42,754 bases of DNA from Methanomassiliicoccaceae archaeon (GTDB lineage: Archaea; Thermoplasmatota; Thermoplasmata; Methanomassiliicoccales; Methanomethylophilaceae): assembly GCA_003555025.1 (NCBI GenBank), contig PWHV01000017.1:1-42754 (forward strand), written 5' to 3'. Each line of letters starts with the position of its first letter. Positions within the stretch are counted from its first letter, which is position 1. Of the stretch, positions 12,547 through 26,550 are shown piece by piece. Below the pieces are notes generated by a model that had not been told where the DNA came from, did no database searches, and saw nothing but the letters and a program-made list of their open reading frames with translations. The translations under genes were made by a program, and so were the position numbers.

Positions 12547-12930
12547 CTAGCTGCGCACGAACTTCACGTATTCGGCCACGCTCTTGGAATGGATGTCTTG
12601 CAGCATGGACTTGATTTCTTCAGCCTCCCCCCTGACGATGAGTACCTCCAGGCACTTGTGGTTGCGCAGGTGGGAGTGAAGGTGGGTCTGTATCATGTCC
12701 TCGTTCTTGTGTATGATGTTCATCAGCCAGGTATCGTTGTGCCTGCTGTGGACGATGATGGCCACCCCCTCGACCTCTCCCGCGAGGTCCTCGCGCTCCT
12801 TCATCTCCGCCTCCGCCGCGCGGAGGCACAGGCGTATCGCTTCGCTCCGATTGCTGAGGCCCAGGGTCTGCTGCAGGCAGTCGAGGTCCTCGATATTCTT
12901 GTCGTTCAATGATATGCTGACAACGGCCAT
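12547..12930 (-). CDS. nikR: NikR-type nickel-responsive regulator
   Basis: Ribbon-helix-helix repressor with a C-terminal ACT-like metal-sensing domain, 127 residues. The DNA-binding part is MAVVSISLNDKNIEDL...SNRSEAIRLCLR. The metal site aligns with E. coli NikR: His74, His85, His87 and Cys93 fall at the same spacing as His76, His87, His89 and Cys95, within THLHSHLRNHKCLEVLIVRG. All four high-affinity nickel ligands are therefore kept. It is divergent from a TroA/ZnuA-type metal ABC importer, across a 181-base AT-rich spacer with direct repeats, so it probably controls that importer. ATG 12930 is the family-typical start. Metal specificity is inferred from ligand conservation. Confidence 0.9.
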   Translation of the reverse strand: MAVVSISLNDKNIEDLDCLQQTLGLSNRSEAIRLCLRAAEAEMKEREDLAGEVEGVAIIVHSRHNDTWLMNIIHKNEDMIQTHLHSHLRNHKCLEVLIVRGEAEEIKSMLQDIHSKSVAEYVKFVRS

Positions 12931-12996
12931 GGTAAATCGTCCCGTGTGATAGATTGGTTGTTGATTATTATTGTCGACCCTTCACTTTATTGAACA

Positions 12997-13034
12997 GTAT
13001 GGATTGTTATTTGTCCCGTATGTGAATTGTTATT
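12997..13034. promoter_or_regulatory. Paired direct repeats, candidate metalloregulator operator
   Basis: GTATGGATTGTTATT (12997-13011) is repeated as GTATGTGAATTGTTATT (13018-13034), starting 21 bases apart, in the spacer between nikR and the metal importer. A weaker relative, GTGTGATAGATTGGTTGTTG, lies at 12944-12963. The E. coli NikR half-site is GTATGA, so the shared GTATG is suggestive. The copies here are direct, though, not the inverted arrangement of the classical operator. Confidence 0.4.
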
Positions 13035-13080
13035 AAAGTTGTAGGTGATTTCCTTTAATATTTATGAAGATGCTAATCAA

Positions 13081-13089
13081 ATATTAATA
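13081..13089 (+). promoter_or_regulatory. TATA box of the metal importer operon
   Basis: ATATTAATA is centred about 27 bases before ATG 13112 and supports a leaderless start for the substrate-binding protein. Confidence 0.55.
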
Positions 13090-13111
13090 ATCATTCAATA
13101 ATTCCTTTTGC

Positions 13112-13969
13112 ATGCAACCGGTTCAGTTACTCGCCGCCATGCTCGCCGCAGCCCTTTTGCTCGCAGGCGGCATCATAATACTGGGTTCGGATGAAGATGA
13201 CAGAGCGGAGATCGCCGTCACATTGGCCTGGCAGAAGGAGATGGTGGAGTGGATAGGCGGGGACCACTTCAAGGCGACCCACATGGTGAGACCCGGTGAG
13301 GATCCCCACGTCCCCGAGGGGATGACCCCGGCGGAGGTGGTGTCAGCGGCCAATTCCGAGGCCTACTTGTACATAGGTGCGGGCATGGGATGGGAATCGA
13401 CGCACCTCAGCACCATAGAATCTGAGTTGCCTGAACTGAAGATGTTCAAGATGTCCGAGGGTGTGGACCTCATACCGCGGGGAGCGAGCAACGACTCCCA
13501 TATATGGACGCTTCCCGACAATCTGCTGATAACGGCGAACAACACCAAGAACGCCCTCATCGAGCTCGACCCTGAGAACGAGGCGGACTACATAGCGGGA
13601 TACGAGAGTTATGTCCAGAAAGTCAACGAGATAAAATCACTGGCCGATGACAAGCTGGGTGACGCCGATGGCAACGAGTTCCTGGTTTTCCATTCCGCCT
13701 GGCAGTATTTCGCTCAACACTACAACCTGACTGAGGTGGCCCTCCAGGACGAGTTCGGAAGTGACCTCGACCCGACCACAGTAGCCAGCTGGATAGACAA
13801 CAACCATGCTGGCCTGGACAAGATGTACGTCAGGCCTCATGACCCCGTCAATGAGGGGGCTTTCGCCGATCAGGGGATCGAGGTCGTGATTATGAACCCG
13901 CTCTCGCTCAATTGGTTGGACGAGTTGGAAAAGTTCATTAACGAATTGGAGGATTTCTCCGCGGCCTGA
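13112..13969 (+). CDS. Metal ABC importer, substrate-binding protein (TroA/ZnuA type)
   Basis: Extracytoplasmic cluster A-I binding protein that captures a transition metal, 285 residues. A hydrophobic N-terminal anchor or signal (residues 5-25) has no lipobox cysteine. Three family metal ligands are visible as His66 (PGEDPH), His130 (NDSHIW) and His194 (FHSAW). The fourth position, normally Asp in a DPL motif, reads Asn262 in MNPLSLNW. There is no histidine-rich loop of the kind seen in many zinc-specific ZnuA proteins. It is first in an operon with its ATPase and permease and divergent from nikR. The metal could be zinc, manganese or, given nikR, nickel; this is unresolved. Confidence 0.9.
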   Translation: MQPVQLLAAMLAAALLLAGGIIILGSDEDDRAEIAVTLAWQKEMVEWIGGDHFKATHMVRPGEDPHVPEGMTPAEVVSAANSEAYLYIGAGMGWESTHLSTIESELPELKMFKMSEGVDLIPRGASNDSHIWTLPDNLLITANNTKNALIELDPENEADYIAGYESYVQKVNEIKSLADDKLGDADGNEFLVFHSAWQYFAQHYNLTEVALQDEFGSDLDPTTVASWIDNNHAGLDKMYVRPHDPVNEGAFADQGIEVVIMNPLSLNWLDELEKFINELEDFSAA

Positions 13970-13984
13970 TGGCTCTGTGTTACG

Positions 13985-14749
13985 ATGGCAAGCAGTCCGC
14001 CCATAGAAATCGATGACCTCACCGCGGGTTACGGCAGCAACATCGTCCTCGAGGGCGTCAGCCTCAGGCTTGAGGAGAAGGATTTCCTCGCCGTCATCGG
14101 GCCGAACGGAGGGGGGAAGACCACACTCCTCAAGGCCATACTGGGCATCATAACCCCTCTCAAGGGCGATATTCGCATCTTCGGAGAAACGGTCGGCAAC
14201 GGTCTGAGAAAGATTGGCTATGTGCCTCAGAGAGGTAACTTCGACAGCAGCTACCCCATATCGGTTTACGACGTGGTCCTGATGGGGACCCGGGTGATGA
14301 AGGGCTACAGCCCCCGCTACAGCGCGGAGTGCCACGAGAGGACGGCAGAGGCTTTGGAGATAGTCGGCATAGAGGACCTGGCGGAATACAGCCTTTCAAA
14401 GCTCTCCGGGGGGCAGATGCAGAGGGCGTTGCTGGCGAGGGCCATGGCCGGCAGGCCGGACATACTGCTCCTCGACGAGCCCACCGCCAGCCTGGACCCG
14501 CATATCAAGGAGTGCATCTATGACTCCCTGCGCCGCATAAACAAGGACCTCGCCATCATGATCGTCACCCATGACATCGGAGTGGTCTCCACCCACGTCA
14601 AGAGGGTGGCATGCCTGAACAAGAACATAATAGTCCATGACGAGCCTTTGATAACCCCCGACATGCTGGAGATGGGCTACCATTGCAACGTGGAGCTGTT
14701 GGCCCACGGCGTGCCGCACAGGACATACGGGGAGCATGACCATGACTGA
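13985..14749 (+). CDS. Metal ABC importer, ATP-binding protein (ZnuC type)
   Basis: Cytoplasmic ATPase of the metal importer, 254 residues. Walker A is GPNGGGKTT, the Q-loop is VPQRG, the signature is LSGGQMQRA, Walker B is LLLDEPTAS and the switch histidine is in VTHDIG. All are intact. ATG 13985 lies 15 bases after the binding-protein gene. The stop overlaps the start of the permease gene, so the three genes form one operon. The ZnuC/TroB/MntB-like family is clear, but the metal cannot be assigned from this subunit. Confidence 0.95.
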   Translation: MASSPPIEIDDLTAGYGSNIVLEGVSLRLEEKDFLAVIGPNGGGKTTLLKAILGIITPLKGDIRIFGETVGNGLRKIGYVPQRGNFDSSYPISVYDVVLMGTRVMKGYSPRYSAECHERTAEALEIVGIEDLAEYSLSKLSGGQMQRALLARAMAGRPDILLLDEPTASLDPHIKECIYDSLRRINKDLAIMIVTHDIGVVSTHVKRVACLNKNIIVHDEPLITPDMLEMGYHCNVELLAHGVPHRTYGEHDHD

Positions 14750-15617
14750 TTGGGGCATGGTGCTCTCCATAGGCCTCATCCAGAACATGTTCCTGGCCAC
14801 CATAATGGCCAGTGTGGTGTGCGGGGTGATCGGCACCTATGTGGTGGTGAAGAGGATAGTGTTCGTCAGCGGCGGGATAGCGCACACCACCTTCGGAGGC
14901 GTCGGTTTCGCGTATTACCTGCAATCGGTCTACCTGGTGTCATGGTTCACGCCGATGATCGGCGCTATAGTCTTCGCGGTGGCCGCGGCGCTCATAATCG
15001 GCTCCCCCCGCATAAACAAGATAGTGCGCGAAGACTCCACCATCGGCGTGCTATGGGTGGTCGGAATGGCGCTGGGTGTGCTTTTCATAAGCCTCACCGA
15101 CCACAACGTGGTGCTGGTGAGGTCGTACGAGAGCATCCTGTTCGGGAACGTTCTCCTCGTCAGCAGCCAGAACCTTCAGGTAATGGCCGTCATGGGCATA
15201 GTCATACTGTCCCTGGTGGCTTATCTGTACCGCGATCTGCAGATACTCACCTTCGACGAGACCCAAGCAAGGATAAGCGGCATCAACGTAACCTTGATGA
15301 ACATCCTGCTCTACGTGCTGGTCGCCTTGACCTGCGTCTTCGTGATGAACATCGTGGGCATAGTCCTGGTCATAGCCCTGCTGACACTGCCCGCGGCCAT
15401 AGCGAGCATGTTCAGCAACGACCTGCGGCAGATCATGGTCCTGGCGACGGTGTGCGCGCTGGTGCTCTCGTTTCTGGGCCTGGTGCTGTCGATAGAGTTC
15501 AGCATACCACCGGGGGCCTCGATCGTGCTCACCCTAGCGGTGTTCTTCATGCTCTCCCTGGGGATCAAGTCCTACCATGACCGTGGAGCGGTAGTATCGA
15601 AGGCGGAGAGGGATTGA
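14742..15617 (+). CDS. Metal ABC importer, permease (ZnuB/TroC type)
   Basis: Membrane channel subunit of the metal importer, ABC-3 family, 291 residues with about eight or nine membrane helices. Family-typical stretches are GGIAHTTFGGVG (near residue 48) and the C-terminal MNIVGIVLVIALLTLPAAIA. ATG 14742 is preferred because GGGGAG lies seven bases upstream; ATG 14736 in the same frame is the alternative. The start overlaps the ATPase gene by 8 bases. A small hairpin followed by T residues lies just after the stop and may end the operon. Confidence 0.94.
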   Translation: MTDWGMVLSIGLIQNMFLATIMASVVCGVIGTYVVVKRIVFVSGGIAHTTFGGVGFAYYLQSVYLVSWFTPMIGAIVFAVAAALIIGSPRINKIVREDSTIGVLWVVGMALGVLFISLTDHNVVLVRSYESILFGNVLLVSSQNLQVMAVMGIVILSLVAYLYRDLQILTFDETQARISGINVTLMNILLYVLVALTCVFVMNIVGIVLVIALLTLPAAIASMFSNDLRQIMVLATVCALVLSFLGLVLSIEFSIPPGASIVLTLAVFFMLSLGIKSYHDRGAVVSKAERD

Positions 15618-15643: not shown

Positions 15644-15666
15644 CGGCTCAGATGTAGCCGTTTTCC
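15644..15666 (+). terminator. Possible terminator hairpin of the metal importer operon
   Basis: ACGGCT (15644-15649) and AGCCGT (15657-15662) form a six-base stem with a seven-base loop, followed by TTTCC. It lies 27 bases after the permease stop and overlaps the end of the convergent SDR gene. A short stem, so modest support. Confidence 0.3.
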
Positions 15667-16637
15667 TTATACCATTCCACCGTTTCGCGCAGGCCCTCCT
15701 TGAGATCGTAGGCCGGAGAGTATCCCAGCTCCGTCATGATCTTGTCCACCGAGTAGCTGCGGTCGCTGTTCACCGCGTCTACGGTGCTCAGCCTCCACAT
15801 GAAATTGTCACGGCGGAGCAGGGCGTTGGCCCCCTGGACCGGCGCTATCATCGCCTTGGCGAGCATGGGATTGAGGCGGATTCTCGGCCTGGGCTTTCCG
15901 ATTATCTCCGCCAGCATCGAGTAGACCTCCTCGTAGCTGTAGGAGCGACCCTCGCTGACTATGTAGGTCTCACCGATGGAGGACGGATCGTTGAGGGCAA
16001 GGATGTGCGCCTGGACCACGTCCTTGACATGAACGAACTGGACATGGCTCTTGCCTTTGCCGATCATGAAACGGGAGGCGATGGAATTGGCGAAGGAGGT
16101 TATGAACCAGAAGGACACGTCGTTGACGTTGCGGGGGCCGTATATGCCGGAAGGGCGGAGGATGGTGTAGCGCAGGCCGCTGCGCTCGAAACGTCGTACG
16201 ACCTCCTCCGCCATAAGCTTGGAGCGCCCGTAGTCGAAGGCGGGATGGGGGTCGCTGTACTCGTTGGCGGGAATCGCCTCCACCGGCCCCATCGCCTCAG
16301 TGGAGGAGCAATAGATGAAGCGTTCCACGCCCTCGCCCAGGGCGGCCTTGATGAGATTCTCGGTGCCGTCGACGTTCACCCTCCGATAGTTTTCCCATTT
16401 GCCGGAGAACGTGTAATAGGCGGCCAAGTGAATGACGGCGTCCACCCCTCGGACCGCCTCCCGCAACGACGGAGGGTCGTCGAGGTAGCCCTCGCGCAGC
16501 TCCACGCCCATCTCCTCCAGCCGGGAGGTGTCGCTGCTGCCGCGCACCATGACCGCCACCTGGTGGCCGTCCTCGAGCAGACCTTCCGTCATATGCCCGC
16601 CGAGGAACCCTGTCGCCCCGGTCACCAGGACCTTCAA
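15648..16637 (-). CDS. NAD(P)-dependent extended SDR (3-beta-HSD / epimerase-like)
   Basis: Extended short-chain dehydrogenase/reductase, 329 residues. The Rossmann dinucleotide motif is TGATGFLGG (6-14), the serine/threonine is in YCSSTEAMG, and the catalytic pair is Tyr136-X3-Lys140 (YGRSK). The sequence is closest in style to 3-beta-hydroxysteroid dehydrogenase/dihydroflavonol reductase-like members. The start is a TTG at 16637 with GAGGTG five bases before it, and TTGA overlaps the stop of the luxC-like gene, so the two are translationally coupled. As the third gene of the luxE-luxC-SDR operon it may act on the same aldehyde or carbonyl product. Its substrate is not known. Confidence 0.88.
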   Translation of the reverse strand: MKVLVTGATGFLGGHMTEGLLEDGHQVAVMVRGSSDTSRLEEMGVELREGYLDDPPSLREAVRGVDAVIHLAAYYTFSGKWENYRRVNVDGTENLIKAALGEGVERFIYCSSTEAMGPVEAIPANEYSDPHPAFDYGRSKLMAEEVVRRFERSGLRYTILRPSGIYGPRNVNDVSFWFITSFANSIASRFMIGKGKSHVQFVHVKDVVQAHILALNDPSSIGETYIVSEGRSYSYEEVYSMLAEIIGKPRPRIRLNPMLAKAMIAPVQGANALLRRDNFMWRLSTVDAVNSDRSYSVDKIMTELGYSPAYDLKEGLRETVEWYKENGYI

Positions 16638-18082
16638 TCCAACACCTCTTTGCCGAGCGAGAGGTCGCGTTGGTAGACGCCGTAGGTGAACAGTTTGGCC
16701 ATGTCCACGCCGTCATAGGGCTCCAGCGGGCTGCGCATGAACATGTCGTCCAATGGGACGATGCGATAGGCCCCCGTCGACGGCAGCGAAGGGATCAGGG
16801 CCTCCTTCCTGCCCGCGTTCACAGCGAGACCGATGGTCTGGACCTTGTCGGCGCCGCGGTAGGCGTTATTGTCGGGAAGGTCGCCGATGAGGTCGATGAC
16901 GCGCTCGCTGTCGTCCACGCGTATCACCTCCAGGAAGCGGCGGCGGTTGTGGAAGGCCAGCGGGCCATAGGCCTGGCTGGCGTCGTCCAGGTCGCTTATG
17001 CTCTCGGAGAGGGTTATCGTCCACATGTTGTCCGTGTCGTTGGAGGAGAACACCCTCCCGCCGGCGAACTGCACGTATTTGCGGGCGCACTGCAGTATGA
17101 ACGCCCCGTCGTCGCTCATCCCCATGGCCATGCCCTTGCCCATAGCGTCCAGACGCTCGCCCACCTGGGAGCAGAAGCTCTTGGCGGCTTCCATCGAGCC
17201 GATGAAGGCGGCCTGCGTGGGCGAGGAGCATAGCTGCTGGTCGTAGAGCAGCATGTTCATCGCCAGTCCGTGGGCGGCCTCGGCGCCGGCGCTCTCCTCG
17301 TCGATGACCGCGAATCCTGTCAGCGGCCCGTTGGCGAAGTAGCGCGGCATGTGAGGGTTCATCGCCACCTTGGCGGACACCTCCCCTCTGCCAGGATCCC
17401 CGCCCCAGAAGTTGACCACTCCGATGCGGGCGTGGGAGAGCAGATAGTCGAGGACCGCGCTGCGATGGGAGAAGTAGCTGACCACCAGCAGATCCAGCAT
17501 CTCCTGGGCGCCGGTCGTCTTCACCGCCTCCTCCAGGGTGCTTATCACCGCCAGCACCGCCTCGTAGTTGGACAGCGACGGCTTCAGTATGGTGAGGTTG
17601 CCGGTGGCGAGGGCGGTTATGGTGGGTATGAACGGAGGGACCAGCGAGTTCCCGGAGCTGATCACCAGCGCCGGGCCGCAGGGATGGTTGCGGATGTTCT
17701 CTCCCTCCGCTATCGGCATCATGGCCTCCAGCGACGCCGCGCCGCCCCGCAGGGTGGAGTCGAGGTTCTTCCTCATCTTCTCGGGGTCGAGGACCTCGGC
17801 CACGAACGACATCTCCAGCCTGATGACCTCGGGGGAGTAGCCGGTGCTCAGGGCCAGGCGCTCGGCCACCCCGTCCAGCTCTCCCGACTCCCATCGCCGC
17901 CTCCATATCCTCCCCATCTCCTCGATGGTCCTGAGGCGCTTCTCCACGGGCAGATTGGCGGCCGCCCGCTGCAGCCTGTCGGCCTTCGACAGTATGGCCT
18001 CGATGGAGGGGCGGTCGATCTCCGCGGCGGGCTGCGCAGTGTCGCAACGGAACTGGTGTCCAGGGCAGTAAGGTTCGAACAT
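16634..18082 (-). CDS. LuxC-like acyl-CoA/acyl-enzyme reductase
   Basis: Predicted NADPH-dependent reductase that turns an activated acyl group into an aldehyde, as LuxC does in bacterial luciferase fatty-acid reductase. From ATG 18082 it has 482 residues, the normal LuxC length. The active-site cysteine is Cys285 in YDQQLCSSPTQ, matching Cys286 of Vibrio harveyi LuxC. The nucleotide-binding region includes ISSGNSLVPPF and LKPSLSN. ATG 18082 follows GGAGGAG of the luxE-like gene's end; the open frame further upstream is a shadow of that gene. It lies between the luxE-like and SDR genes. No luciferase (luxAB) is in the window, and the acyl substrate is unknown. Confidence 0.9.
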   Translation of the reverse strand: MFEPYCPGHQFRCDTAQPAAEIDRPSIEAILSKADRLQRAAANLPVEKRLRTIEEMGRIWRRRWESGELDGVAERLALSTGYSPEVIRLEMSFVAEVLDPEKMRKNLDSTLRGGAASLEAMMPIAEGENIRNHPCGPALVISSGNSLVPPFIPTITALATGNLTILKPSLSNYEAVLAVISTLEEAVKTTGAQEMLDLLVVSYFSHRSAVLDYLLSHARIGVVNFWGGDPGRGEVSAKVAMNPHMPRYFANGPLTGFAVIDEESAGAEAAHGLAMNMLLYDQQLCSSPTQAAFIGSMEAAKSFCSQVGERLDAMGKGMAMGMSDDGAFILQCARKYVQFAGGRVFSSNDTDNMWTITLSESISDLDDASQAYGPLAFHNRRRFLEVIRVDDSERVIDLIGDLPDNNAYRGADKVQTIGLAVNAGRKEALIPSLPSTGAYRIVPLDDMFMRSPLEPYDGVDMAKLFTYGVYQRDLSLGKEVLD

Positions 18083-18084
18083 CT

Positions 18085-19353
18085 TCACTCCTCCATCATC
18101 TCTTCCATGGTCCCCCCGCAGGCCCGTTGCAGGTCCCAGCCCTCCTTCACCGTCAAGCGGCGGCCGAACTCGAACTCCTTGCCGTAGAAACGCTCGGAGG
18201 AATGGTACTTCATGATGTCGCCGGGGAAGAACGCCTCCAGCCATGTGGTGACGAAGGGGTTGTAGATGCATATCAGCCCCTCCTTGCCCTCCTCCTCTAT
18301 GAGCTCGAAGGTCGTGGGGTCCACCAGGAACACCTCGGACAGTGGGTGGGGAAGCTTCCCCATCTTCTCGTGGTTGTCGATGAGCGCTGTCAGGGTCTCG
18401 GTCATGCCCAGAACGTCCATGAAGGGTGCCTCGACGCCGTCGCCGCCGCGGGTCAGCGCTTTGAAGTAGTTGCGGGCGCCCTCGGCCATCTCCGCGTAGG
18501 GCGGCAGGTCGGTGAAGCCCTTGGACCCGCCGCCGGTGACTATGACGCCGCCCTTGCCCAGGTTCACGGGCGGGGCGCGGGTGATGATCTTTGACACCTC
18601 GCGCTTGAGGTTGCTCATGTCGTTGAAGCGCTTCGACATCAGGTATACGCCGGCGGGAGCGGTGAAGAAGAGCTTGGGCTCCTCCTTGCTCTTGAGGAAC
18701 TTGAGGATGTTCTTCTTGTCCGGCTGCAGCCTCTGCCACGGGGTCTCATCCCCATCGGCCTCGCGCATGCTCATGCCGTAGAGCAGCTCGATCCCCTTCG
18801 ACTCGAGCGCCAGCTCCACGAACGCCACGAAGCTCAGCATGTGCCTCAATTCGGGGGCGGCCATGAACAACGCCTGGCCCTTGTTCTCCTCCAGCTCGTG
18901 GCCGTAGACGTACTCGAACAGGTCGGCGTTGGCCTTGACCATTATGGCGAGGTCCACGGGGCTGCGGTAGACCTTGACGGGCGCCTTGCCGGTGGTGCCG
19001 CTGGACTGGAACTGCTCCCCGCCCTCGTCCACGTCATCGATGACGAAGCGCTCGTGGCCGTCGCCGCGGATCATGTCCGCAGGGACCATAAGCTTGACCA
19101 GGTCCTGCTTCTCGGCGGTGGCGGGGTCGATCTCCAGCCTATCGAAGAGCGCCGCGTAGTACTCGGAGTTGTCGCGGAAGAACGCGAGCGACTGCCGCAT
19201 CAGATCCTTCCTCAGCTCGGCGAGCTCCTGCGGCGTCTTCTCGAACAGACCCGGTTCGTTTATGAGGTTCCATATCCTCTCCACGAACGGGTCCTGGCGG
19301 TGTTTGCTGTCGGCAGCCTTTTGCTTTATCTCTTCGATTCCCAGAATGAGCAC
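18085..19353 (-). CDS. LuxE-like acyl-protein synthetase
   Basis: Predicted ATP-dependent activator of a free carboxylic acid. It would form an acyl-adenylate, then an acyl-thioester on its own cysteine for handover to LuxC. It has 422 residues, with the adenylation motif SSGTTGKAPVKVYRS (117-131) and a second conserved block DVLGMTET. Cys412, ten residues from the C-terminus (QRACGG), is placed like the acyl-accepting cysteine of LuxE. The start is a GTG at 19353, about 31 bases from AATAAAC on the minus strand, so it may be leaderless. It is first in the operon, and the luxC-like gene starts two bases after its stop. A phenylacetate-CoA ligase-like role is the main alternative. Confidence 0.88.
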   Translation of the reverse strand: MLILGIEEIKQKAADSKHRQDPFVERIWNLINEPGLFEKTPQELAELRKDLMRQSLAFFRDNSEYYAALFDRLEIDPATAEKQDLVKLMVPADMIRGDGHERFVIDDVDEGGEQFQSSGTTGKAPVKVYRSPVDLAIMVKANADLFEYVYGHELEENKGQALFMAAPELRHMLSFVAFVELALESKGIELLYGMSMREADGDETPWQRLQPDKKNILKFLKSKEEPKLFFTAPAGVYLMSKRFNDMSNLKREVSKIITRAPPVNLGKGGVIVTGGGSKGFTDLPPYAEMAEGARNYFKALTRGGDGVEAPFMDVLGMTETLTALIDNHEKMGKLPHPLSEVFLVDPTTFELIEEEGKEGLICIYNPFVTTWLEAFFPGDIMKYHSSERFYGKEFEFGRRLTVKEGWDLQRACGGTMEEMMEE

Positions 19354-19375
19354 CCCCCGGCGGATGAAAGTAGAA

Positions 19376-19400
19376 GGGGTTTATTGTTTATTGAATTATT
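19376..19400 (-). promoter_or_regulatory. AT-rich promoter of the luxE-luxC-SDR operon
   Basis: The 65-base spacer between pycA and the luxE-like gene contains ATTCAATAAACAATAAACC on the minus strand. Its position about 30 bases before the GTG at 19353 suggests an independent promoter rather than read-through from pycA. Confidence 0.45.
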
Positions 19401-19418
19401 GCCGGGAGGGCTTAAAAG

Positions 19419-20900
19419 TCACTTCTGCGGCTGATTGCTGCGCACGTAAACATCCACGGCGGCGGCGATGGCGGCCACCTCCCGGCCTTGGCTGAAGGAC
19501 TCCGCCAGTGTCCGCATGCGCGACTCCTCGTCCTCCATATAGCGCTCCAGCTTGGAGAGTATCCCCTCCTGCTCGATGAAATGGGTGTGGGTGTCGCCGT
19601 TGATGTAGCTGCGGTTGTTCATTATCGCGTAGTGCAGCGGCAAAGTGGTCTTCACCCCCAGGATCACGTACTCGTAGATGGCGCGCCGCATCCTCTGGAT
19701 GGCCTCCATGCGGTCCGATCCATAGGAGCACAGCTTAGAGACCAGGGAGTCGTAATGCGCCGGAATGGTGTATCCCATGTGCACCCCCGAGTCCACCCTG
19801 ACCCCGGGGCCGCCCGGCGATCGATAGCGAACTATCTTCCCGGGGTCTGCGTTGAAGTCGTTCATGGGGTCCTCGGCGTTCACACGGCACTCGATGGCGT
19901 GGCCGCGTATGCCGATGTCCTCCTGGCCCAGGGCCAGGGGCTCGCCGGCGGCGATGGCCAGCTGCTGCTTCACGATGTCGATGCCGGTGATCAGCTCGGA
20001 GATGGTGTGCTCCACCTGCAGGCGGGTGTTCATCTCCATGAAGTAGTGCTGCCCGTCGGCGAAGAGGAACTCCACCGTGCCGGCGTTGGTGTAGCCCACG
20101 GTTCTGGCGACGGTGAGCGCCGACTCGGTGATCGCGTCGCGGAGCTCCTCGGTCATGATGGGGGAGGGGGCCTCCTCCACCAGCTTCTGGTAGCGCCTCT
20201 GGATGGAGCATTCTCTCTCGAAGAGGTGCACCGCGTTCCCCTGGGAATCGGCAAGCACCTGCACCTCGATGTGGCGGGGCTTCTCCAGGTACTTCTCGAT
20301 GAACACCGTGGCATCGCCGAAGGCGGAGCCGGCGATGCGTATCGCCTTCTCGATGGCCTCCTTGAGCCCGTCCTCGCTGTGGACTATCTGCATCCCTATG
20401 CCCCCGCCGCCGGCGCTGGCCTTGGTTATGACCGGATAGCCGATGCGGGAGGCGACCTCGCGCGCCTCGTCCACGGTCTTGACCCCGCCCTCGGTGCCCC
20501 CCAGCACCGGGACGCCGGCATCGCGCATCAGGCGCTTGCTGCCGATCTTGGAGCCCATGGTCTCGATGACCTGCGACGAGGGGCCGATGAAGACAACGCC
20601 CTCGTCCTCGCAGAGCTTGGCGAAGGAGCTGTTCTCCGCCAGGAACCCGTAGCCAGGGTGCACAGCCTCCGCCCCGGACTTCTGGGCGATCTCGCATATC
20701 CTCTCCTTGTTCAGATAGCTGTGAGACGGGTGCGCCTCGCCGACATGGAAGGCCTCGTCGGCGTACTTCACGTGCAGGGCGTTCTTGTCCGGGTCGGAGT
20801 ATATGGCGACGGTCTCTATCCCCAGCTCGCGGCAGGCGCGCATCACCCGGATGGCGATCTCTCCGCGGTTGGCGATGAGTACCTTGTTGAAGTAAGACAT
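19419..20900 (-). CDS. pycA: Pyruvate carboxylase subunit A (biotin carboxylase)
   Basis: Carboxylates the biotin on PycB using ATP and bicarbonate, supplying oxaloacetate for the incomplete citric acid cycle and amino acids. The 493-residue protein opens with MSYFNKVLIANRGEIAIRV, has the ATP-grasp glycine loop KASAGGGGIG, and carries the biotin-carboxylase motifs HIEVQVLADSQG, RECSIQRR and EMNTRLQVEH. The archaeal two-subunit form is expected in methanogens. It starts 13 bases after pycB, so one operon is clear. Acetyl-CoA carboxylase biotin carboxylase is similar, but the pycB neighbour decides the assignment. Confidence 0.95.
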   Translation of the reverse strand: MSYFNKVLIANRGEIAIRVMRACRELGIETVAIYSDPDKNALHVKYADEAFHVGEAHPSHSYLNKERICEIAQKSGAEAVHPGYGFLAENSSFAKLCEDEGVVFIGPSSQVIETMGSKIGSKRLMRDAGVPVLGGTEGGVKTVDEAREVASRIGYPVITKASAGGGGIGMQIVHSEDGLKEAIEKAIRIAGSAFGDATVFIEKYLEKPRHIEVQVLADSQGNAVHLFERECSIQRRYQKLVEEAPSPIMTEELRDAITESALTVARTVGYTNAGTVEFLFADGQHYFMEMNTRLQVEHTISELITGIDIVKQQLAIAAGEPLALGQEDIGIRGHAIECRVNAEDPMNDFNADPGKIVRYRSPGGPGVRVDSGVHMGYTIPAHYDSLVSKLCSYGSDRMEAIQRMRRAIYEYVILGVKTTLPLHYAIMNNRSYINGDTHTHFIEQEGILSKLERYMEDEESRMRTLAESFSQGREVAAIAAAVDVYVRSNQPQK

Positions 20901-20913
20901 GCGAGAAAACCCC

Positions 20914-22662
20914 TCAATTCAGCACCATAAGGACGTCGCCGGTCTGGACCACGTCGCCGTTGCTCACGAATATCTCCTTCACGGTACCGTCGGCAGGGCT
21001 GTTGATGGGATTCTCCATCTTCATCGCCTCCAGTATCACCAGGGTGTCCCCTTTCTTCACCTCGGCGCCGGCCTCCACCGGGATCTTCAGCACCATTCCG
21101 GTCATGTTGCTCTTCACGCCGCCTTCGACGTCGCCGCGGGGAGCCCCTCCCACGGGATTGCCCGAGGCCTCGACGGTCGAGCCTTCGACGGACACGATGC
21201 GCACCGCGAATATCTCCCCGTCGACCTCCACCTCCATGGCGGCGGGCATTCCCGTGGGAGCGGCCGCGGCGGGCGCCTCACCGGGCTTGGCGGGTAGGCA
21301 CTCGCACTCCCGCTCGCCCTTGAGGAACGAGGGAGCGATGCTGGGGTAGATGATGTAGCTGAGGATGTCCTCCTCCTTCTTCACCATGCCCGCCCCCTCG
21401 GCATCCTTCTTCATCTGCTCGTACACCGGCTCGAGGAGGTCGGCGGGCCTCGCCGTGACCACTTCCTCGTCGCCGATGATCAGTTTCAGAATGTCCCCCT
21501 CGATGGGCTTGGGCGGCTTCCCGTAGAGGCCGAGGACGTAATCCTTGACCTCCTTGGTGACGCTGGTGTAACGGCCCCCGGGCACGAGGACGTTGAATAT
21601 CGCCTGGGTCCCCACTATCTGGCTGGTGGGGGTCACCAGGGGAGGGTAGCCGAGGTCCTTGCGCACCGCGGGTATCTCCATCAATACTTCCTCGAGGCGG
21701 TCGAAGGCGTTCTGCTCCTTCAACTGCGATATGAGGTTGGATATCATGCCCCCCGGCAGCTGGTAGATGAGCACGTCGGAGTCGACGCGCTCGGATATGG
21801 GGTCCACCAGACCGCCGTACTTGTCGCGCAGCTTCATGCAGAGGTTGCGCGTCTCCCGCAGGGCGGCGAGATCGATGCCGCTGTCGCGCTCGGTTCCCTG
21901 CACCGCGGCCACGATGGTCTCGGTGGCGGGCTGGGACGTCCCGAAGGCGAAGGGGGACATCGCCGTGTCGACGATGTCCACGCCGGCCTCGATGGCCGCC
22001 TGGTAGCTCATGGGCGCGAGGCCGCTGGTGGAATGGGAGTGCAGGCATACCGGCACGTCCATCTCGTCCTTGATGCCGGTGACTATCGCCACCGCCTCGT
22101 GGGGGGTGATCAGGCCGGCCATGTCCTTGATGGCGATGGAGTCGCAGTCATGGGAGTAGAGCTCGCGGGCCATGCCGATGAATGCATCGCTGTCGTGCAC
22201 CGGGCTGGTGGTGTAGCATATCGCCCCCTGCAGATGGGCGCCGTTGTTCTTCACCTCCTCCATTGACTTCCTCATGTTGCGTACGTCATTCAAAGCGTCG
22301 AATACACGGAAGATGTCCACGCCGTTCCTCGATGCCGCCTCCACGAACCTCTCCACCACGTCATCGGGGTAATGCCGGTATCCCACCAGGTTCTGTCCGC
22401 GCAGGAGCATCTGCACCTGGGTGTTCTTGAGCTCCTCCTTGATCTTGACGAGGCGCTCCCATGGGTCCTCCGCCAGGTATCTCATGCTGCAATCGAACGT
22501 GGCCCCGCCCCAGGCCTCCAGGGAATGGAATCCCATCCTGTCCATGGACCTCGCCAATGGAAGCATGTCATCGGTACGCATCCGAGTGGCGATCAGAGAT
22601 TGGTGGGCGTCACGTAGCGTGGTATCGGTGATTTTCAACATCTTACGGCTGGCGGGGCTCAT
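20914..22662 (-). CDS. pycB: Pyruvate carboxylase subunit B (carboxyltransferase plus biotin carrier)
   Basis: Moves CO2 from carboxybiotin to pyruvate. From ATG 22662 it has 582 residues. The N-terminal HMG-CoA-lyase-like TIM barrel opens with KITDTTLRDAHQSLIATR, a conserved PYC-OADA domain follows, and an alanine/proline linker leads to a biotinyl domain with the biotin lysine in LEAMKMENP. ATG 22662 is chosen because GAGGT lies 7-11 bases upstream; the frame stays open 21 codons further without homology. Oxaloacetate decarboxylase alpha is the close alternative, but pairing with a biotin carboxylase and the absence of sodium-pump beta/gamma subunits favour pyruvate carboxylase. Confidence 0.95.
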   Translation of the reverse strand: MSPASRKMLKITDTTLRDAHQSLIATRMRTDDMLPLARSMDRMGFHSLEAWGGATFDCSMRYLAEDPWERLVKIKEELKNTQVQMLLRGQNLVGYRHYPDDVVERFVEAASRNGVDIFRVFDALNDVRNMRKSMEEVKNNGAHLQGAICYTTSPVHDSDAFIGMARELYSHDCDSIAIKDMAGLITPHEAVAIVTGIKDEMDVPVCLHSHSTSGLAPMSYQAAIEAGVDIVDTAMSPFAFGTSQPATETIVAAVQGTERDSGIDLAALRETRNLCMKLRDKYGGLVDPISERVDSDVLIYQLPGGMISNLISQLKEQNAFDRLEEVLMEIPAVRKDLGYPPLVTPTSQIVGTQAIFNVLVPGGRYTSVTKEVKDYVLGLYGKPPKPIEGDILKLIIGDEEVVTARPADLLEPVYEQMKKDAEGAGMVKKEEDILSYIIYPSIAPSFLKGERECECLPAKPGEAPAAAAPTGMPAAMEVEVDGEIFAVRIVSVEGSTVEASGNPVGGAPRGDVEGGVKSNMTGMVLKIPVEAGAEVKKGDTLVILEAMKMENPINSPADGTVKEIFVSNGDVVQTGDVLMVLN

Positions 22663-22715
22663 GGTAGTACCTCGTGGGGAATGTGGATCTCCAAAAAACT
22701 GTTTCAGCAGAAATC

Positions 22716-22734
22716 TACAATACAAGTATAAAAA
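22716..22734 (-). promoter_or_regulatory. pycB upstream motif shared with bioY
   Basis: On the plus strand this reads TACAATACAAGTATAAAAA. It matches 14 of 19 positions of the element upstream of bioY (25258-25276) and lies at a similar distance from the start codon (about 53 bases). It may combine a TATA box with a biotin-operon operator for BirA; this is inference. Confidence 0.35.
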
Positions 22735-22737
22735 ATT

Positions 22738-23370
22738 TCACCAATGGGCCAGCAGGGAGAGAATCGGAACTGCCGAAGCCAAGACGGCCAGCAACAGGTC
22801 GCGGCGCTCGGTGAGAAAGGTGGGCTCTATCTCCCCGCCGGCGCTGTAGCCGCGCACCGTGAGCAGTTTGGCGGTCTCCTCGGTGCGCCGCAGCTGGTTT
22901 ATCACTATGTTGGCCGCCAGGGGCACCAGGTTGCGCACCGAGGGTTTCATGCCCTTAATCTCCATCGCCTGCCGCACCTGCACTATGTCCTGGTTTATCA
23001 TCCGCAGCCCTTGCAGGCCCATCTCCGCCATAAGGCCGATGTCGAAGCCTGTCCTCTTTCCCATCATCCACACCGACACGTCGAGAAGCTCGCTCTCCTG
23101 GCGGTCGCTGAACGCCCAGGCGGCGATGAGAAGTATGGGGATCATCCTCAGCAGATAGAGGAGCCCGAGCCCCCCGGTGAGCTCGGAGACGATGGCGGTG
23201 GCGCTTATCATCAGGACCACGCCGCTCAGCATCCGCGGATGGGGCACCGCCTTCAGCCTGGGGGTGAAGAGGGCCCACCACAGGAGGGCGGCCACCGCCC
23301 CCACGGGGCTGATGAACGCCCCCGCCGAGAGGAGTATGGTGCTGAGTATCCTCAGCCGCGGGTCGCGCAT
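22738..23370 (-). CDS. ECF transporter transmembrane subunit EcfT (biotin)
   Basis: Membrane coupling subunit of an energy-coupling-factor importer, 210 residues with about four or five helices. The coupling-helix motifs of EcfT are visible as QAMEIKGMKP (a variant of ALKARG) and LLTVRGYSAG. ATG 23370 lies inside the end of the second ATPase gene, an overlap of 19 bases. It is last in the order bioY - ATPase - ATPase - ecfT. It transmits ATP-driven motion to the substrate component BioY; BioMNY-type biotin transport is the expected role. Confidence 0.9.
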   Translation of the reverse strand: MRDPRLRILSTILLSAGAFISPVGAVAALLWWALFTPRLKAVPHPRMLSGVVLMISATAIVSELTGGLGLLYLLRMIPILLIAAWAFSDRQESELLDVSVWMMGKRTGFDIGLMAEMGLQGLRMINQDIVQVRQAMEIKGMKPSVRNLVPLAANIVINQLRRTEETAKLLTVRGYSAGGEIEPTFLTERRDLLLAVLASAVPILSLLAHW

Positions 23371-24044
23371 AGGGCCTCCTCCACATCGTCCATGGCTATG
23401 TTGCGCGGCCTCGCACCGTGCTCCAGCGCACGGCGCAGATACGGCGGCGCGCCAGCCCAGCGGCCGATGGACCCCGGCACCGCGCCCAGGGGCTCCAACT
23501 CCGCATCGGAGATCTGTGACAGCGTCGTCACCCGCGGGAGCATCGCCCGCTCGTGGGAGAACAGCATCGTAATCCTCCCGTCGCGCGAGCCGATGGCCTG
23601 GCACACCTTGGCCTTGGCCCGGCAGTCCAAGGAGCTGAATGGCTCGTCCAGGATCAACAGGTCGGGGTCGAGGGCGAAAACGCAGGCCAGGTTCAAGCGC
23701 TTGAGCTGGCCGCGGCTGAGCTTGAAAGGGTCGACGGCATTGCGGCCGATGAGCCCCGCCCGGGGCAGCACCTCGCCGGGGTCCAGCCCCCAAGACCGGA
23801 CCTCGTCGTCGACGCTGGCGGCGGTCACGTGGTATTCGGGGAACTGCAGCGACATAACCTTGCTCTCCACTCCTTCGAAGCGCAGGTCGCCGTCGAAGGG
23901 GACGAGCCCCGCCATCGCCAAGGCCATGGTGGTCTTACCGCTGCCGATGGCCCCGCTGACGAGATGGACGCCGGGGCCGTAGGACGCCCGGCAGCGGAGG
24001 GAGAACCCCTCCCTGCTGGCCATCAGTTCCAGTTCGGCCCTCAT
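23352..24044 (-). CDS. ECF transporter ATPase (second subunit)
   Basis: ABC ATPase of the biotin ECF importer, 230 residues. Walker A is GAIGSGKTT (31-39), Walker B is LLILDEPFSS (129-138) and the switch histidine is His164 in FSHER. The signature loop is degenerate, LSRGQ (109-113), instead of LSGGQ. ATG 24044 overlaps the stop of the upstream ATPase gene as ATGA. It probably forms a heterodimer with that ATPase. The degenerate signature would complete the upstream subunit's ATP site, which also lacks its switch histidine. Confidence 0.9.
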   Translation of the reverse strand: MRAELELMASREGFSLRCRASYGPGVHLVSGAIGSGKTTMALAMAGLVPFDGDLRFEGVESKVMSLQFPEYHVTAASVDDEVRSWGLDPGEVLPRAGLIGRNAVDPFKLSRGQLKRLNLACVFALDPDLLILDEPFSSLDCRAKAKVCQAIGSRDGRITMLFSHERAMLPRVTTLSQISDAELEPLGAVPGSIGRWAGAPPYLRRALEHGARPRNIAMDDVEEALCATRG

Positions 24045-24709
24045 CGCCGCAGCCTCCACATGCTGGGATAGAAACAGGTGCCCTCCAAGGATGCGAACAC
24101 CTCCTCCGGAGGGCCTCGCAGCATCACCCTCCCCCCGTCGATGTATAGGACGAGGTCGGCGGCGGCGGCATGGTCCATGTCCTGGGTGCAGTACACCGCC
24201 CTCTGATCAGAGGAAAGGACCGTCTCCCGTATGAGGCGGGAGCTGGCCTCGTCCAAGTGACTGTCCACCTCATCGAGCACCAGCAGGTCCGGCGACGGCG
24301 CCAGCGCCGCCGCCAGCGCCACCAGCGCCTTCTCCCCCCCGGATATCTCCCCCGTGCCCCTGAGGAGAAGGTCGGGCCTCCCCAGCATCCCCATGGTGGC
24401 CCGCGTCCTCCTATCAGCGACGTCCACCGGGACCTTGAGGAAGCGCAGCGACGAGGCCACCTCATCGAACACCCGTGAGAACAGCATGGTGTGGTCGGGG
24501 AACTCTCCCACCCAGCCCACGGTGGCCAGCTCCGGCCGGCGGCCCATTACCTCCACCGTGCCCTCGCGGGGCTTGTCCATGCCCGACAGCAGCTCCAGCA
24601 GGGTGGTCTTGCCGGCGCCGTTGGGGCCTATGACCGCCACCCTCCCCTCCTTCGCGATGAGGGAGGGGACGTCGAGCAGGTGGTGCCTCAGGCCCTCTAT
24701 CCGGATCAT
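24041..24709 (-). CDS. ECF transporter ATPase (first subunit)
   Basis: ABC ATPase of the biotin ECF importer, 222 residues. Walker A is GPNGAGKTT (28-36), the signature is ISGGE (122-126) and Walker B is LLVLDEVDS (142-150). The switch histidine of the usual VTHD is replaced by glutamine, Gln176 in YCTQDMDH. ATG 24709 overlaps the bioY stop as ATGA, so translation is coupled. The open frame extends upstream into bioY as a shadow. Pairing with the second ATPase would give one canonical and one degenerate composite ATP site. Confidence 0.9.
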   Translation of the reverse strand: MIRIEGLRHHLLDVPSLIAKEGRVAVIGPNGAGKTTLLELLSGMDKPREGTVEVMGRRPELATVGWVGEFPDHTMLFSRVFDEVASSLRFLKVPVDVADRRTRATMGMLGRPDLLLRGTGEISGGEKALVALAAALAPSPDLLVLDEVDSHLDEASSRLIRETVLSSDQRAVYCTQDMDHAAAADLVLYIDGGRVMLRGPPEEVFASLEGTCFYPSMWRLRR

Positions 24710-25209
24710 TCCAAGCGCTCCCCGATCTTGTAGGCGGCGATGAGCTTCACCGCGTCCCCGAGGAGGAAGGGGGCCACCCCGAGCATGGTCGCCTCCGGCA
24801 GCGGTATCTGCGCCGAGTAGGCCAGCCACAGCACGCCGGTAAGGTATATCATGCCGCTGGCTAGCACCAGGCCCGTCAGACGCAGCGCCCTGCCCTCCCT
24901 CTCATAGGCGAGCCCCGCCAGCAGCACGGCGGGCAGGAAGCCGACCAGATAACCGCCCGTGGGGCCCAGCAGCACACCGATGCCGGCGGTGCCGTTGTGG
25001 AACACCGGGAGGTTGAGAGCGCCCAGCATCAGATACAGGACGACGGGGATGACGGCGTGCCTCTTCATGACGATGGCCGCCAGCAGCACGAAGAGGGTCT
25101 GCAGCGTCAGCGGGACGGGGATGAACGGGATGGATATCCAGCTGCCCGCGGCTATGAGGGCTATGAACGTGGCGCTGTAGGACAGCAGGGCGGCGCGGTT
25201 CTCCATCAT
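24706..25209 (-). CDS. bioY: Biotin transporter substrate-binding subunit BioY
   Basis: Substrate-capture membrane component (S component) of the biotin ECF importer, 167 residues, six predicted helices. BioY hallmarks are visible: ISIPFIPVPLTLQTLFVLLA near the N-terminus and GPTGGYLVGF in the middle. Two ATGs lie at 25209 and 25206; GGAGG about nine bases before 25209 supports it. It is first in a bioY - ATPase - ATPase - ecfT operon with overlapping genes, next to birA and pycAB, which need biotin. No biotin biosynthesis genes are in the window. Confidence 0.94.
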   Translation of the reverse strand: MMENRAALLSYSATFIALIAAGSWISIPFIPVPLTLQTLFVLLAAIVMKRHAVIPVVLYLMLGALNLPVFHNGTAGIGVLLGPTGGYLVGFLPAVLLAGLAYEREGRALRLTGLVLASGMIYLTGVLWLAYSAQIPLPEATMLGVAPFLLGDAVKLIAAYKIGERLE

Positions 25210-25257
25210 CGTCTCAATCCTCCGGGGCGCTGGCCGTCGCCAGCTGAGATAGGACTA

Positions 25258-25276
25258 TAGAAAACAAGATGAAAAA
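25258..25276 (-). promoter_or_regulatory. bioY upstream motif shared with pycB
   Basis: The plus strand reads TAGAAAACAAGATGAAAAA, matching 14 of 19 positions of the element before pycB. It lies about 48 bases from the bioY start. It is a candidate site for BirA, which here has a DNA-binding domain; unproven. Confidence 0.35.
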
Positions 25277-25295
25277 GTAAGCGGTGGAAGCGGTT

Positions 25296-26270
25296 TCAGA
25301 GCTGGAAGAGGTCGCCGGCGATCACCTTCTCGACCCGGCCGTTGTCCTTCCGGATCACCAGGGCGCCGTGGTCGTCGATGTCCACCGCCTCGCCCTTGAA
25401 GGTCCTCTTCAGCGTCTTGACGTGCACCCTGCGGTTGATGGTGAGGGAGAGGCTCTTCCACTCCTGCACGATGGTGTCATACTCCCCGCTCTCCAGCTGC
25501 AGCAGTCGGAGCTCCAGCTCCTTCAGCACCCGGGCGAGGAAGCGGGGGCGGTCCACGGGCGCGCCCAATTCGAGGTGCAGGGAAGTGGCTATCTCCCTCA
25601 GCTCGTCGGGCAGCTCTTCGAGGTCGATGTTGGCGTCAATGCCCATGCCGAGGAGCACGTAGTTCACCTTATCGCCGTCGGTGGACACCTCCTGCAGCAG
25701 GCCGGCGACCTTCTTGGAGCCGATGAATATGTCGTTGGGCCATTTGATGAGGGCGCCGATGTCGTACTCGCGGCGGATCGCCCGCGCGATGGCCAGGGAC
25801 CCGGCCATGGTTATCATGAACAGACGGTCAACCGGGATGTTGGGAGTCATGATGACGGTGGCCCATATCCCGCCCGGAGGCGATGCCCACATCCTGCCGT
25901 GGCGCCCCACGCCGCCGGTCTGCTGCTCCGACATGACCACCGTGCCGTGCAGGTCGACAGGGTCATTCTCCTCCGCCAAGCGCTTGGCGGCGGCCACAGT
26001 GGAGGGGATGCTGTCGAAGTGACGGGCGTCCTTGCCGATGAAACGGGTGCGGAGGCTCCGGCTCAGCTCGTAAGGAAGCATCAGGCCGGTCCTCCCCTTG
26101 AGCTCGACGCCGCCCTCGGAGGTCCCGATCGCATAGCCAAGGGCGGAAAGCTCGGCCAACGCCTCCTCCGCCTGGGAGCGGTTGATGCCCAGCCTCTCCG
26201 CTGCCTCGTCGAGGGGGATGGCGCTGGCGTTCTCGAGCAGAGCTAAAACCTCAGATGCCTTTTCCTTCAT
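25296..26270 (-). CDS. birA: Biotin-protein ligase BirA with N-terminal HTH
   Basis: Activates biotin as biotinyl-AMP and attaches it to the PycB lysine. Here it also has an N-terminal winged helix-turn-helix (residues 1-60, AAERLGINRSQAEEAL), so it can probably repress biotin genes. From ATG 26270 it has 324 residues. The ligase core shows GGVGRHGRMWASPPGG (equivalent of the GRGRXG loop) and KWPNDIFIGSKKVAG, with an SH3-like C-terminal domain. ATG 26270 is preceded by GAAGG; a GTG at 26318 would add 16 residues with no family support. It lies upstream of bioY on the same strand, with an 86-base gap. Confidence 0.94.
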   Translation of the reverse strand: MKEKASEVLALLENASAIPLDEAAERLGINRSQAEEALAELSALGYAIGTSEGGVELKGRTGLMLPYELSRSLRTRFIGKDARHFDSIPSTVAAAKRLAEENDPVDLHGTVVMSEQQTGGVGRHGRMWASPPGGIWATVIMTPNIPVDRLFMITMAGSLAIARAIRREYDIGALIKWPNDIFIGSKKVAGLLQEVSTDGDKVNYVLLGMGIDANIDLEELPDELREIATSLHLELGAPVDRPRFLARVLKELELRLLQLESGEYDTIVQEWKSLSLTINRRVHVKTLKRTFKGEAVDIDDHGALVIRKDNGRVEKVIAGDLFQL

Positions 26271-26550
26271 GACATATACCTTCTTTCCGTGACGGTCGAC
26301 GGGCCTGCGGCCCCGCACGCCAGGGAACGGGCTGTTGAGACTCCGGGCCGCTTATCAACTTTGCGCCCGTTCCAAGCCATGACACCTGTGATTATATTGT
26401 AATAATCGTTTATTTGTTTATTGCAGGGCCTCGGCACGGCCGTTGCGTATGAGGCTTCCATCGAACCCTCGCATATACGCATCGGAGGCCGGATGCGGCG
26501 GCAAGAAGATTGATAAGGGCTCCAGGACAATGTTCGAGCAGGTGATGGCA

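Follow-up and report, generated by a model that had tools for sequence, protein, structure and literature searches.

This report concerns a group of three genes, hereafter the trio, in a 42,754-nucleotide stretch of DNA (the window: contig PWHV01000017.1, positions 1 to 42,754) from the 1.41-Mb genome of a Methanomassiliicoccaceae archaeon. The closest named relatives of this genome are metagenome-assembled genomes (MAGs) of Methanomethylophilaceae and Methanomassiliicoccaceae, the nearest LuxE being 93% identical. The genes, all on the minus strand and near-contiguous, run in the order luxE-luxC-SDR, where SDR stands for an extended short-chain dehydrogenase/reductase. The initial annotation had described them as three co-oriented, tightly packed genes forming a candidate carboxylic acid reductase pathway, and checking the open reading frames (ORFs) confirmed all three at 15648–19353:

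18085–19353, minus strand: LuxE-like acyl-adenylating enzyme resembling acyl-protein synthetases; 422 amino acids, GTG start; adenylation loop S117-S118-G119-T120, then G316-M-T-E319, G378-D379 and C-terminal QRAC412GG.
16634–18082, minus strand: LuxC-family acyl-thioester reductase; 482 amino acids, ATG start at 18082; PF05893 with E 8.6e-31; catalytic Cys285 in YDQQLC285SSPT and Asn145 in SGN145S.
15648–16637, minus strand: extended SDR, putatively for an aldehyde reductase step; 329 amino acids, TTG start; PF01370 with E 3e-48; GATGFLG, R32/S35 (NADPH-type) and catalytic Y136xxxK140.
16634–16637, minus strand: 4 nt shared by the luxC stop and the SDR start, by their coordinates a tight translational linkage.
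19354–19418, minus strand: 65-nt gap between the gene for a pyruvate carboxylase biotin-carboxylase subunit (19419–20900) and luxE; within this genus, the gap is the leader region of the trio.

At the other junction, the ATG start of luxC lies 2 nt past the luxE stop.

The order of the three genes proved to be conserved well outside this genome. When 61 genomes of the window's order were searched (its own and 60 others), 16 contained a full-length LuxE, in addition to one weak match, and none of the 15 relatives examined departs from the gene order; in locus L024 the contig ends inside the SDR gene. A scan of 84,980 prokaryotic species genomes, based on exact peptide patterns and therefore liable to miss distant bacterial relatives, returned 47 loci, all of them archaeal. 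The trio is complete in 39, another five are truncated where their contig stops, and the three exceptions are L047, without the SDR, L067, with LuxE apart, and L076, with a LuxE fragment. A search for plasmid-borne bacterial LuxE/LuxC gave two weak Salmonella matches and nothing more. The hosts include Methanomassiliicoccales, Methanomethylicota, Brockarchaeota, Desulfurococcales, Thermofilales and Odinarchaeia, among others. Two closed Thermoproteota genomes carrying the trio match Thermosphaera aggregans (1,316,595 bp; PMC3035292) and Thermosphaera sp. 3507 (1,305,106 bp; PMC7729421), an assignment that is strong but indirect. In a Sulfolobales MAG (G333, locus L142), LuxC and SDR have stayed adjacent, with LuxE on the same contig at a distance of roughly 30 kb. 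An apparent 898-residue LuxE-LuxC fusion at L046 was taken as a gene-calling artefact, since LuxE and LuxC give separate matches at that locus. The same gene order in several archaeal phyla is far beyond chance, and the synteny in relatives on which the initial annotation had made its proposal depend is thus present in them and in much more distant archaea.

Within phyla the distribution is patchy: LuxE was found in 8 of 293 sampled Thermoplasmatota, in 25 of 398 genomes from the phylum of G323 and in 2 of 345 from that of G326, and hence the trio does not serve a housekeeping function. In the LuxE tree sequences group mostly by lineage, with those of Methanomassiliicoccales together, those of Methanomethylicota mostly together, and those of Brockarchaeota beside Nitrososphaeria-type genomes. 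Pairwise evolutionary distances of LuxE, LuxC and SDR correlate with r 0.84–0.90, a value to which shared ancestry contributes. Tree and distances fit an old archaeal module, probably inherited jointly and often lost, with possible transfers between phyla.

Two Methanomethylicota-type genomes (G534 and G427) are informative about the interdependence of the three proteins. In both, LuxE is present and LuxC was not found, and the only SDRs are background ones (best scores 94 and 113 bits, versus 411–531 bits for trio SDRs in that search). Incomplete assemblies could hide a gene; in these two genomes LuxE runs straight into the next conserved genes. Their LuxE proteins carry 9 and 22 substitutions, respectively, at 95 positions that are invariant in 61 other sequences, whereas intact sequences have at most 3. 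Among the altered sites are residues of the GMTET adenylation motif and of the motif at the C-terminus, where G427 has Ser in place of Cys412. The two proteins fall on different branches of the LuxE tree, and since a joint clade is rejected (approximately unbiased test, p-AU 2e-6), the losses of LuxC and SDR look independent. That LuxE decays once LuxC and SDR are gone argues that its selected function depends on them, and the joint loss, with LuxE decay exactly where the partners are absent, indicates that the three proteins form one functional unit.

The residues expected to be catalytic are almost without variation among 64 LuxE, 58 LuxC and 52 SDR sequences. Cys412 of the LuxE-like protein is kept in 63 of 64, within a nearly invariant terminal motif QRACGG[TS]; LuxC Cys285 is kept in 58 of 58, and Asn145 is invariant too; Y136 and K140 of the SDR are kept in all 52. 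The earlier claims of an adenylation loop and a cysteine near the C-terminus of LuxE, and of an intact Cys285 in LuxC, were therefore borne out, each residue being where it had been placed.

As for the family of the first enzyme, it reaches the cut-off of no family model tested, its sole Pfam match being a weak one to AMP-binding (E 0.012). When a profile of its family was compared with Protein Data Bank (PDB) chains, the best match was the solved LuxE 7xc6_E (E 2.5e-5, in two stretches), with PaaK at E 0.08. The two proteins have RRLxxxE in common, and the terminal cysteine is residue 364 of 373 in 7xc6_E and 412 of 422 in the window protein, i.e. nine and ten residues from the chain end. Past GD379 the window protein has 43 residues left, compared with about 41 in LuxE. 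CoA (coenzyme A) ligases of the ANL superfamily, by contrast, continue past the GD motif with a C-terminal domain that is mobile and about 100 residues long, and this long domain, as found in PaaK-type enzymes, is absent here. An AlphaFold2 model (mean predicted local distance difference test, pLDDT, 85.5) has a PaaK-type adenylating-domain fold according to Foldseek, and its tail, residues 411–422, is of low predicted confidence, as would suit a swinging or flexible arm. Because of the short tail after the GD motif and the conserved terminal cysteine, a LuxE-like mechanism is favoured. The best reading is that the protein works like LuxE, while not being filed under the Pfam LuxE family (PF04443), whose model it failed to match. 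Its cysteine would thus be acylated and pass the group to LuxC, a role for which the decay of LuxE in genomes that lost LuxC gives indirect support.

The other two assignments are more conventional. LuxC scores 107.6 bits with PF05893, whose cut-off is 21, and its alignment with 7xc6_A, a solved long-chain acyl-protein thioester reductase, extends through YDQQxC; Asn145 of the window protein stands at the position of the conserved Asn of the aligned aldehyde dehydrogenases. It scored 54.9 bits with the long-chain-fatty-acyl-CoA reductase equivalog model NF052251, far from the cut-off of 750. The SDR passes PF01370 (Epimerase) and remains below the NCBIfam cut-offs for HpnA (195.8 versus 367.65 bits) and OleD (141.2 versus 580 bits). 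Its best PDB match is 3wj7 (E 1.5e-40), which we take to be Gox2253, an NADPH aldehyde reductase of Gluconobacter. Beyond the second strand, R32 and S35 do not vary among the 15 sequences of the window's order; residues of this kind at that place favour NADPH in SDRs. The trio does not correspond to a fused carboxylic acid reductase, in which adenylation, thiolation and reductase domains make up one chain, as its proteins are separate and no carrier domain appears among the Pfam matches.

Taken together, the trio is proposed to be a stand-alone, CoA-independent archaeal carboxylic acid reductase system whose SDR would then make the alcohol, a reading to which we assign a probability of roughly 0.7. 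The LuxE-like enzyme would use ATP to adenylate a carboxylic acid to the acyl-AMP and move the acyl group to its own Cys412 on the flexible C-terminal tail; from there the group would be passed to Cys285 of LuxC, which would reduce the thioester to the aldehyde with NAD(P)H, and the SDR would reduce the aldehyde to the alcohol with NADPH. We infer every chemical step from residues and architecture. The steps up to the aldehyde are suggested by LuxE/LuxC homology and residues, and that of the SDR by its homology to 3wj7, gene order and co-loss. The latter step is the weaker, because a Nitrososphaeria MAG (G324, locus L047) has LuxE-LuxC and no trio SDR was found in its genome, so that the SDR may be replaceable or act differently. 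As an inference from sequence, the carboxylic acid reductase pathway put forward in the initial annotation is well supported.

It should be noted that several observations weigh against this proposal. Besides the missing SDR of G324, they concern mainly the first enzyme: it gave no match to Pfam LuxE even at E<=10, and among the 16 relatives of the window LuxE the best result was a single match at E 0.0032; Cys412 is 8 residues after RRLxxxE, versus 4 in the solved LuxE; the top fold matches of the model are PaaK1/PaaK2 and the acyl-CoA ligase BT_0428, with 7xc6_E outside the top 50. Furthermore, no neighbour hinting at substrate or product is common to all trio lineages in the loci compared. 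The fold matches, the failure of the Pfam LuxE model and the very name of PF05893, acyl-CoA reductase, would suit an ordinary PaaK-type CoA ligase followed by an acyl-CoA reductase, the acid being converted to acyl-CoA and then to aldehyde with no acyl-protein intermediate. This appears unlikely, considering that the chain stops 43 residues past D379 where CoA ligases continue for about 100, that the terminal QRACGG[TS] is near-invariant, and that LuxE decays upon loss of LuxC and SDR, where a general acyl-CoA ligase could have been kept for other uses. The initial annotation had held that a firm place among CoA ligases, with no acyl cysteine at the C-terminus, would speak against its proposal; what was found is a PaaK-like fold, yet with a short tail and a near-invariant terminal cysteine.

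It is also conceivable, if somewhat less probable still, that LuxE and LuxC make an aldehyde and the SDR acts elsewhere, for instance on a sugar moiety (as HpnA) or, ahead of activation, on a keto or hydroxy acid (as OleD). The far sub-threshold matches to these two families and the G324 locus are compatible with such a role, but the best solved relative is the presumed aldehyde reductase 3wj7, and the SDR directly follows LuxC nearly everywhere and is lost together with it. A place of the trio in a prenylated cofactor or lipid pathway is very improbable. It is brought to mind by a MenA-like UbiA prenyltransferase and a radical SAM (S-adenosylmethionine) protein downstream in many Methanomassiliicoccales, an association that is strong in Methanomassiliicoccaceae loci. 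In several loci of the order, about 45 nt separate the SDR from a UbiA gene that follows it in the same orientation. Yet many genomes have the pair and not the trio, G044 and G047 have the trio and no close relative of the UbiA protein, and neither in the window's genus nor in the other phyla does the pair adjoin the trio. Least credible of all is the reverse pathway, in which an alcohol would be oxidized to the acid and energy saved via cleavage of the acyl-adenylate. Each step is reversible in principle and many hosts are anaerobes, but the NADPH-type residues R32/S35 of the SDR fit reduction, and no case is known to us in which an ANL enzyme in such a setting yields net ATP.

The convergent UbiA and radical SAM genes (L028: 7432–8385 and 6522–7478, with equivalents in 13 to 16 loci) just past the trio in Methanomassiliicoccales may belong to a separate prenylated cofactor pathway, as they are widespread without the trio. 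For the radical SAM protein, PTO1314 and HpnH are among the best models, none of which reaches its cut-off.

With regard to the substrate of the proposed reductase, we judge the chances of a hydrophobic acid (fatty or isoprenoid) to be about even and the highest for any class; an aromatic acid comes next among named classes, at well under half of that, all other compounds together being somewhat likelier than aromatic ones. The initial annotation had pointed out that fatty acyl chains are not used in archaeal membranes, but this does not dispose of a fatty substrate, because low-level fatty-acid synthesis has been demonstrated in archaea, and haloarchaea make wax esters (PMC11948995). No wax synthase matched in 10 trio genomes, in a search whose control also remained without any match. 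A wider and rather doubtful possibility is that the trio represents an old archaea-specific pathway, extending from methanogens to hyperthermophilic Desulfurococcales and Odinarchaeia, that may convert an isoprenoid or fatty acid to the alcohol via acyl-protein for an undescribed lipid or cofactor or for salvage of membrane chains. Butanetriol tetraether lipids were considered and dropped, since the distribution of the trio gives no hint of them.

Among the closest known systems is the distantly related LuxE-LuxC fatty acid reductase of luminous bacteria (7xc6), with which the trio shares a short-tailed adenylating enzyme with a terminal Cys and the YDQQxC Cys of LuxC. The trio differs in the dedicated SDR that follows, in the order luxE-luxC-SDR, in a LuxE under Pfam detection and in the more distal Cys. 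The absence of luxAB, previously noted, extends to the genome: the luciferase family (PF00296) was unmatched in 10 trio genomes, including the window's own, while 10 of 14 controls matched. PaaK-type CoA ligases and AMP-ligases (2y27, 4r1m) give the best whole-chain Foldseek matches to the LuxE-like protein (2y27, E 1.9e-13, template modelling (TM) score about 0.6 for chain B); the trio enzyme, unlike them, lacks the long C-terminal domain and has the conserved terminal Cys. EhpF of the phenazine D-alanylgriseoluteic acid pathway (3hgv, 3l2k) also matches in fold, with a TM score (target) of about 0.6. EhpF is an adenylating enzyme partnered with the aldehyde-dehydrogenase-like reductase EhpG on an aromatic acid, but its pathway is a bacterial antibiotic one, and there is no sign of an aromatic substrate for the trio. 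In flagellar glycosylation islands of Aeromonas, LuxE/LuxC occur among acyl carrier protein and glycosyltransferase genes (PMC7874193), likewise in a role outside luminescence, although the trio has no such conserved neighbours. The haloarchaeal fatty acyl-CoA reductase FcrA, found with wax synthase, similarly takes an acyl donor to an alcohol in archaea, but it is CoA-dependent, belongs to the HMG-CoA (3-hydroxy-3-methylglutaryl-CoA) reductase family and is unrelated to the trio (PMC11948995).

Open-access papers on LuxE and archaea concern other proteins, and none describes the metabolic step of the trio. Conservation of this operon across several archaeal phyla, its catalytic residues intact, points to a whole metabolic step for which the papers searched gave no description. 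If the proposal is true, a LuxE-LuxC acid reductase would operate outside luminescence, and apparently without CoA, in cells whose membranes are not made of fatty acids; its substrate would reveal an unknown archaeal lipid or cofactor, or the use of scavenged acids. The match to T. aggregans, a cultured type strain, offers heat-stable proteins and a testable pathway.

The genes surrounding the trio vary with lineage. Glutaredoxin and ferredoxin-thioredoxin reductase, downstream in Methanomethylicota, were set aside as lineage-specific neighbours that persist where LuxC-SDR is gone; they directly follow the orphan LuxE genes with decayed catalytic motifs at L138 (7919–9178) and L140 (7878–9137). 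A 2-phosphosulfolactate phosphatase in Brockarchaeota is lineage-specific as well. In the window, the region directly upstream (19419–26318) is a genus-specific biotin uptake and use cluster with pyruvate carboxylase A and B, ECF (energy-coupling factor)-type ATPase genes, BioY (PF02632) and a biotin-protein ligase. A link of the trio to biotin or pyruvate carboxylase was rejected, as PycAB, BirA, BioY and the ECF genes adjoin the trio in this genus only; the same is true of the biotin-carboxylase subunit as upstream neighbour. On the other side, a NikR-like regulator and a ZnuACB-type metal transporter (12547–15617) are convergent with the SDR gene. Further away, 28894–33372 encodes a 1492-residue, probably surface-located large protein that combines GLUG repeats with PKD and carboxypeptidase-regulatory-like domains.

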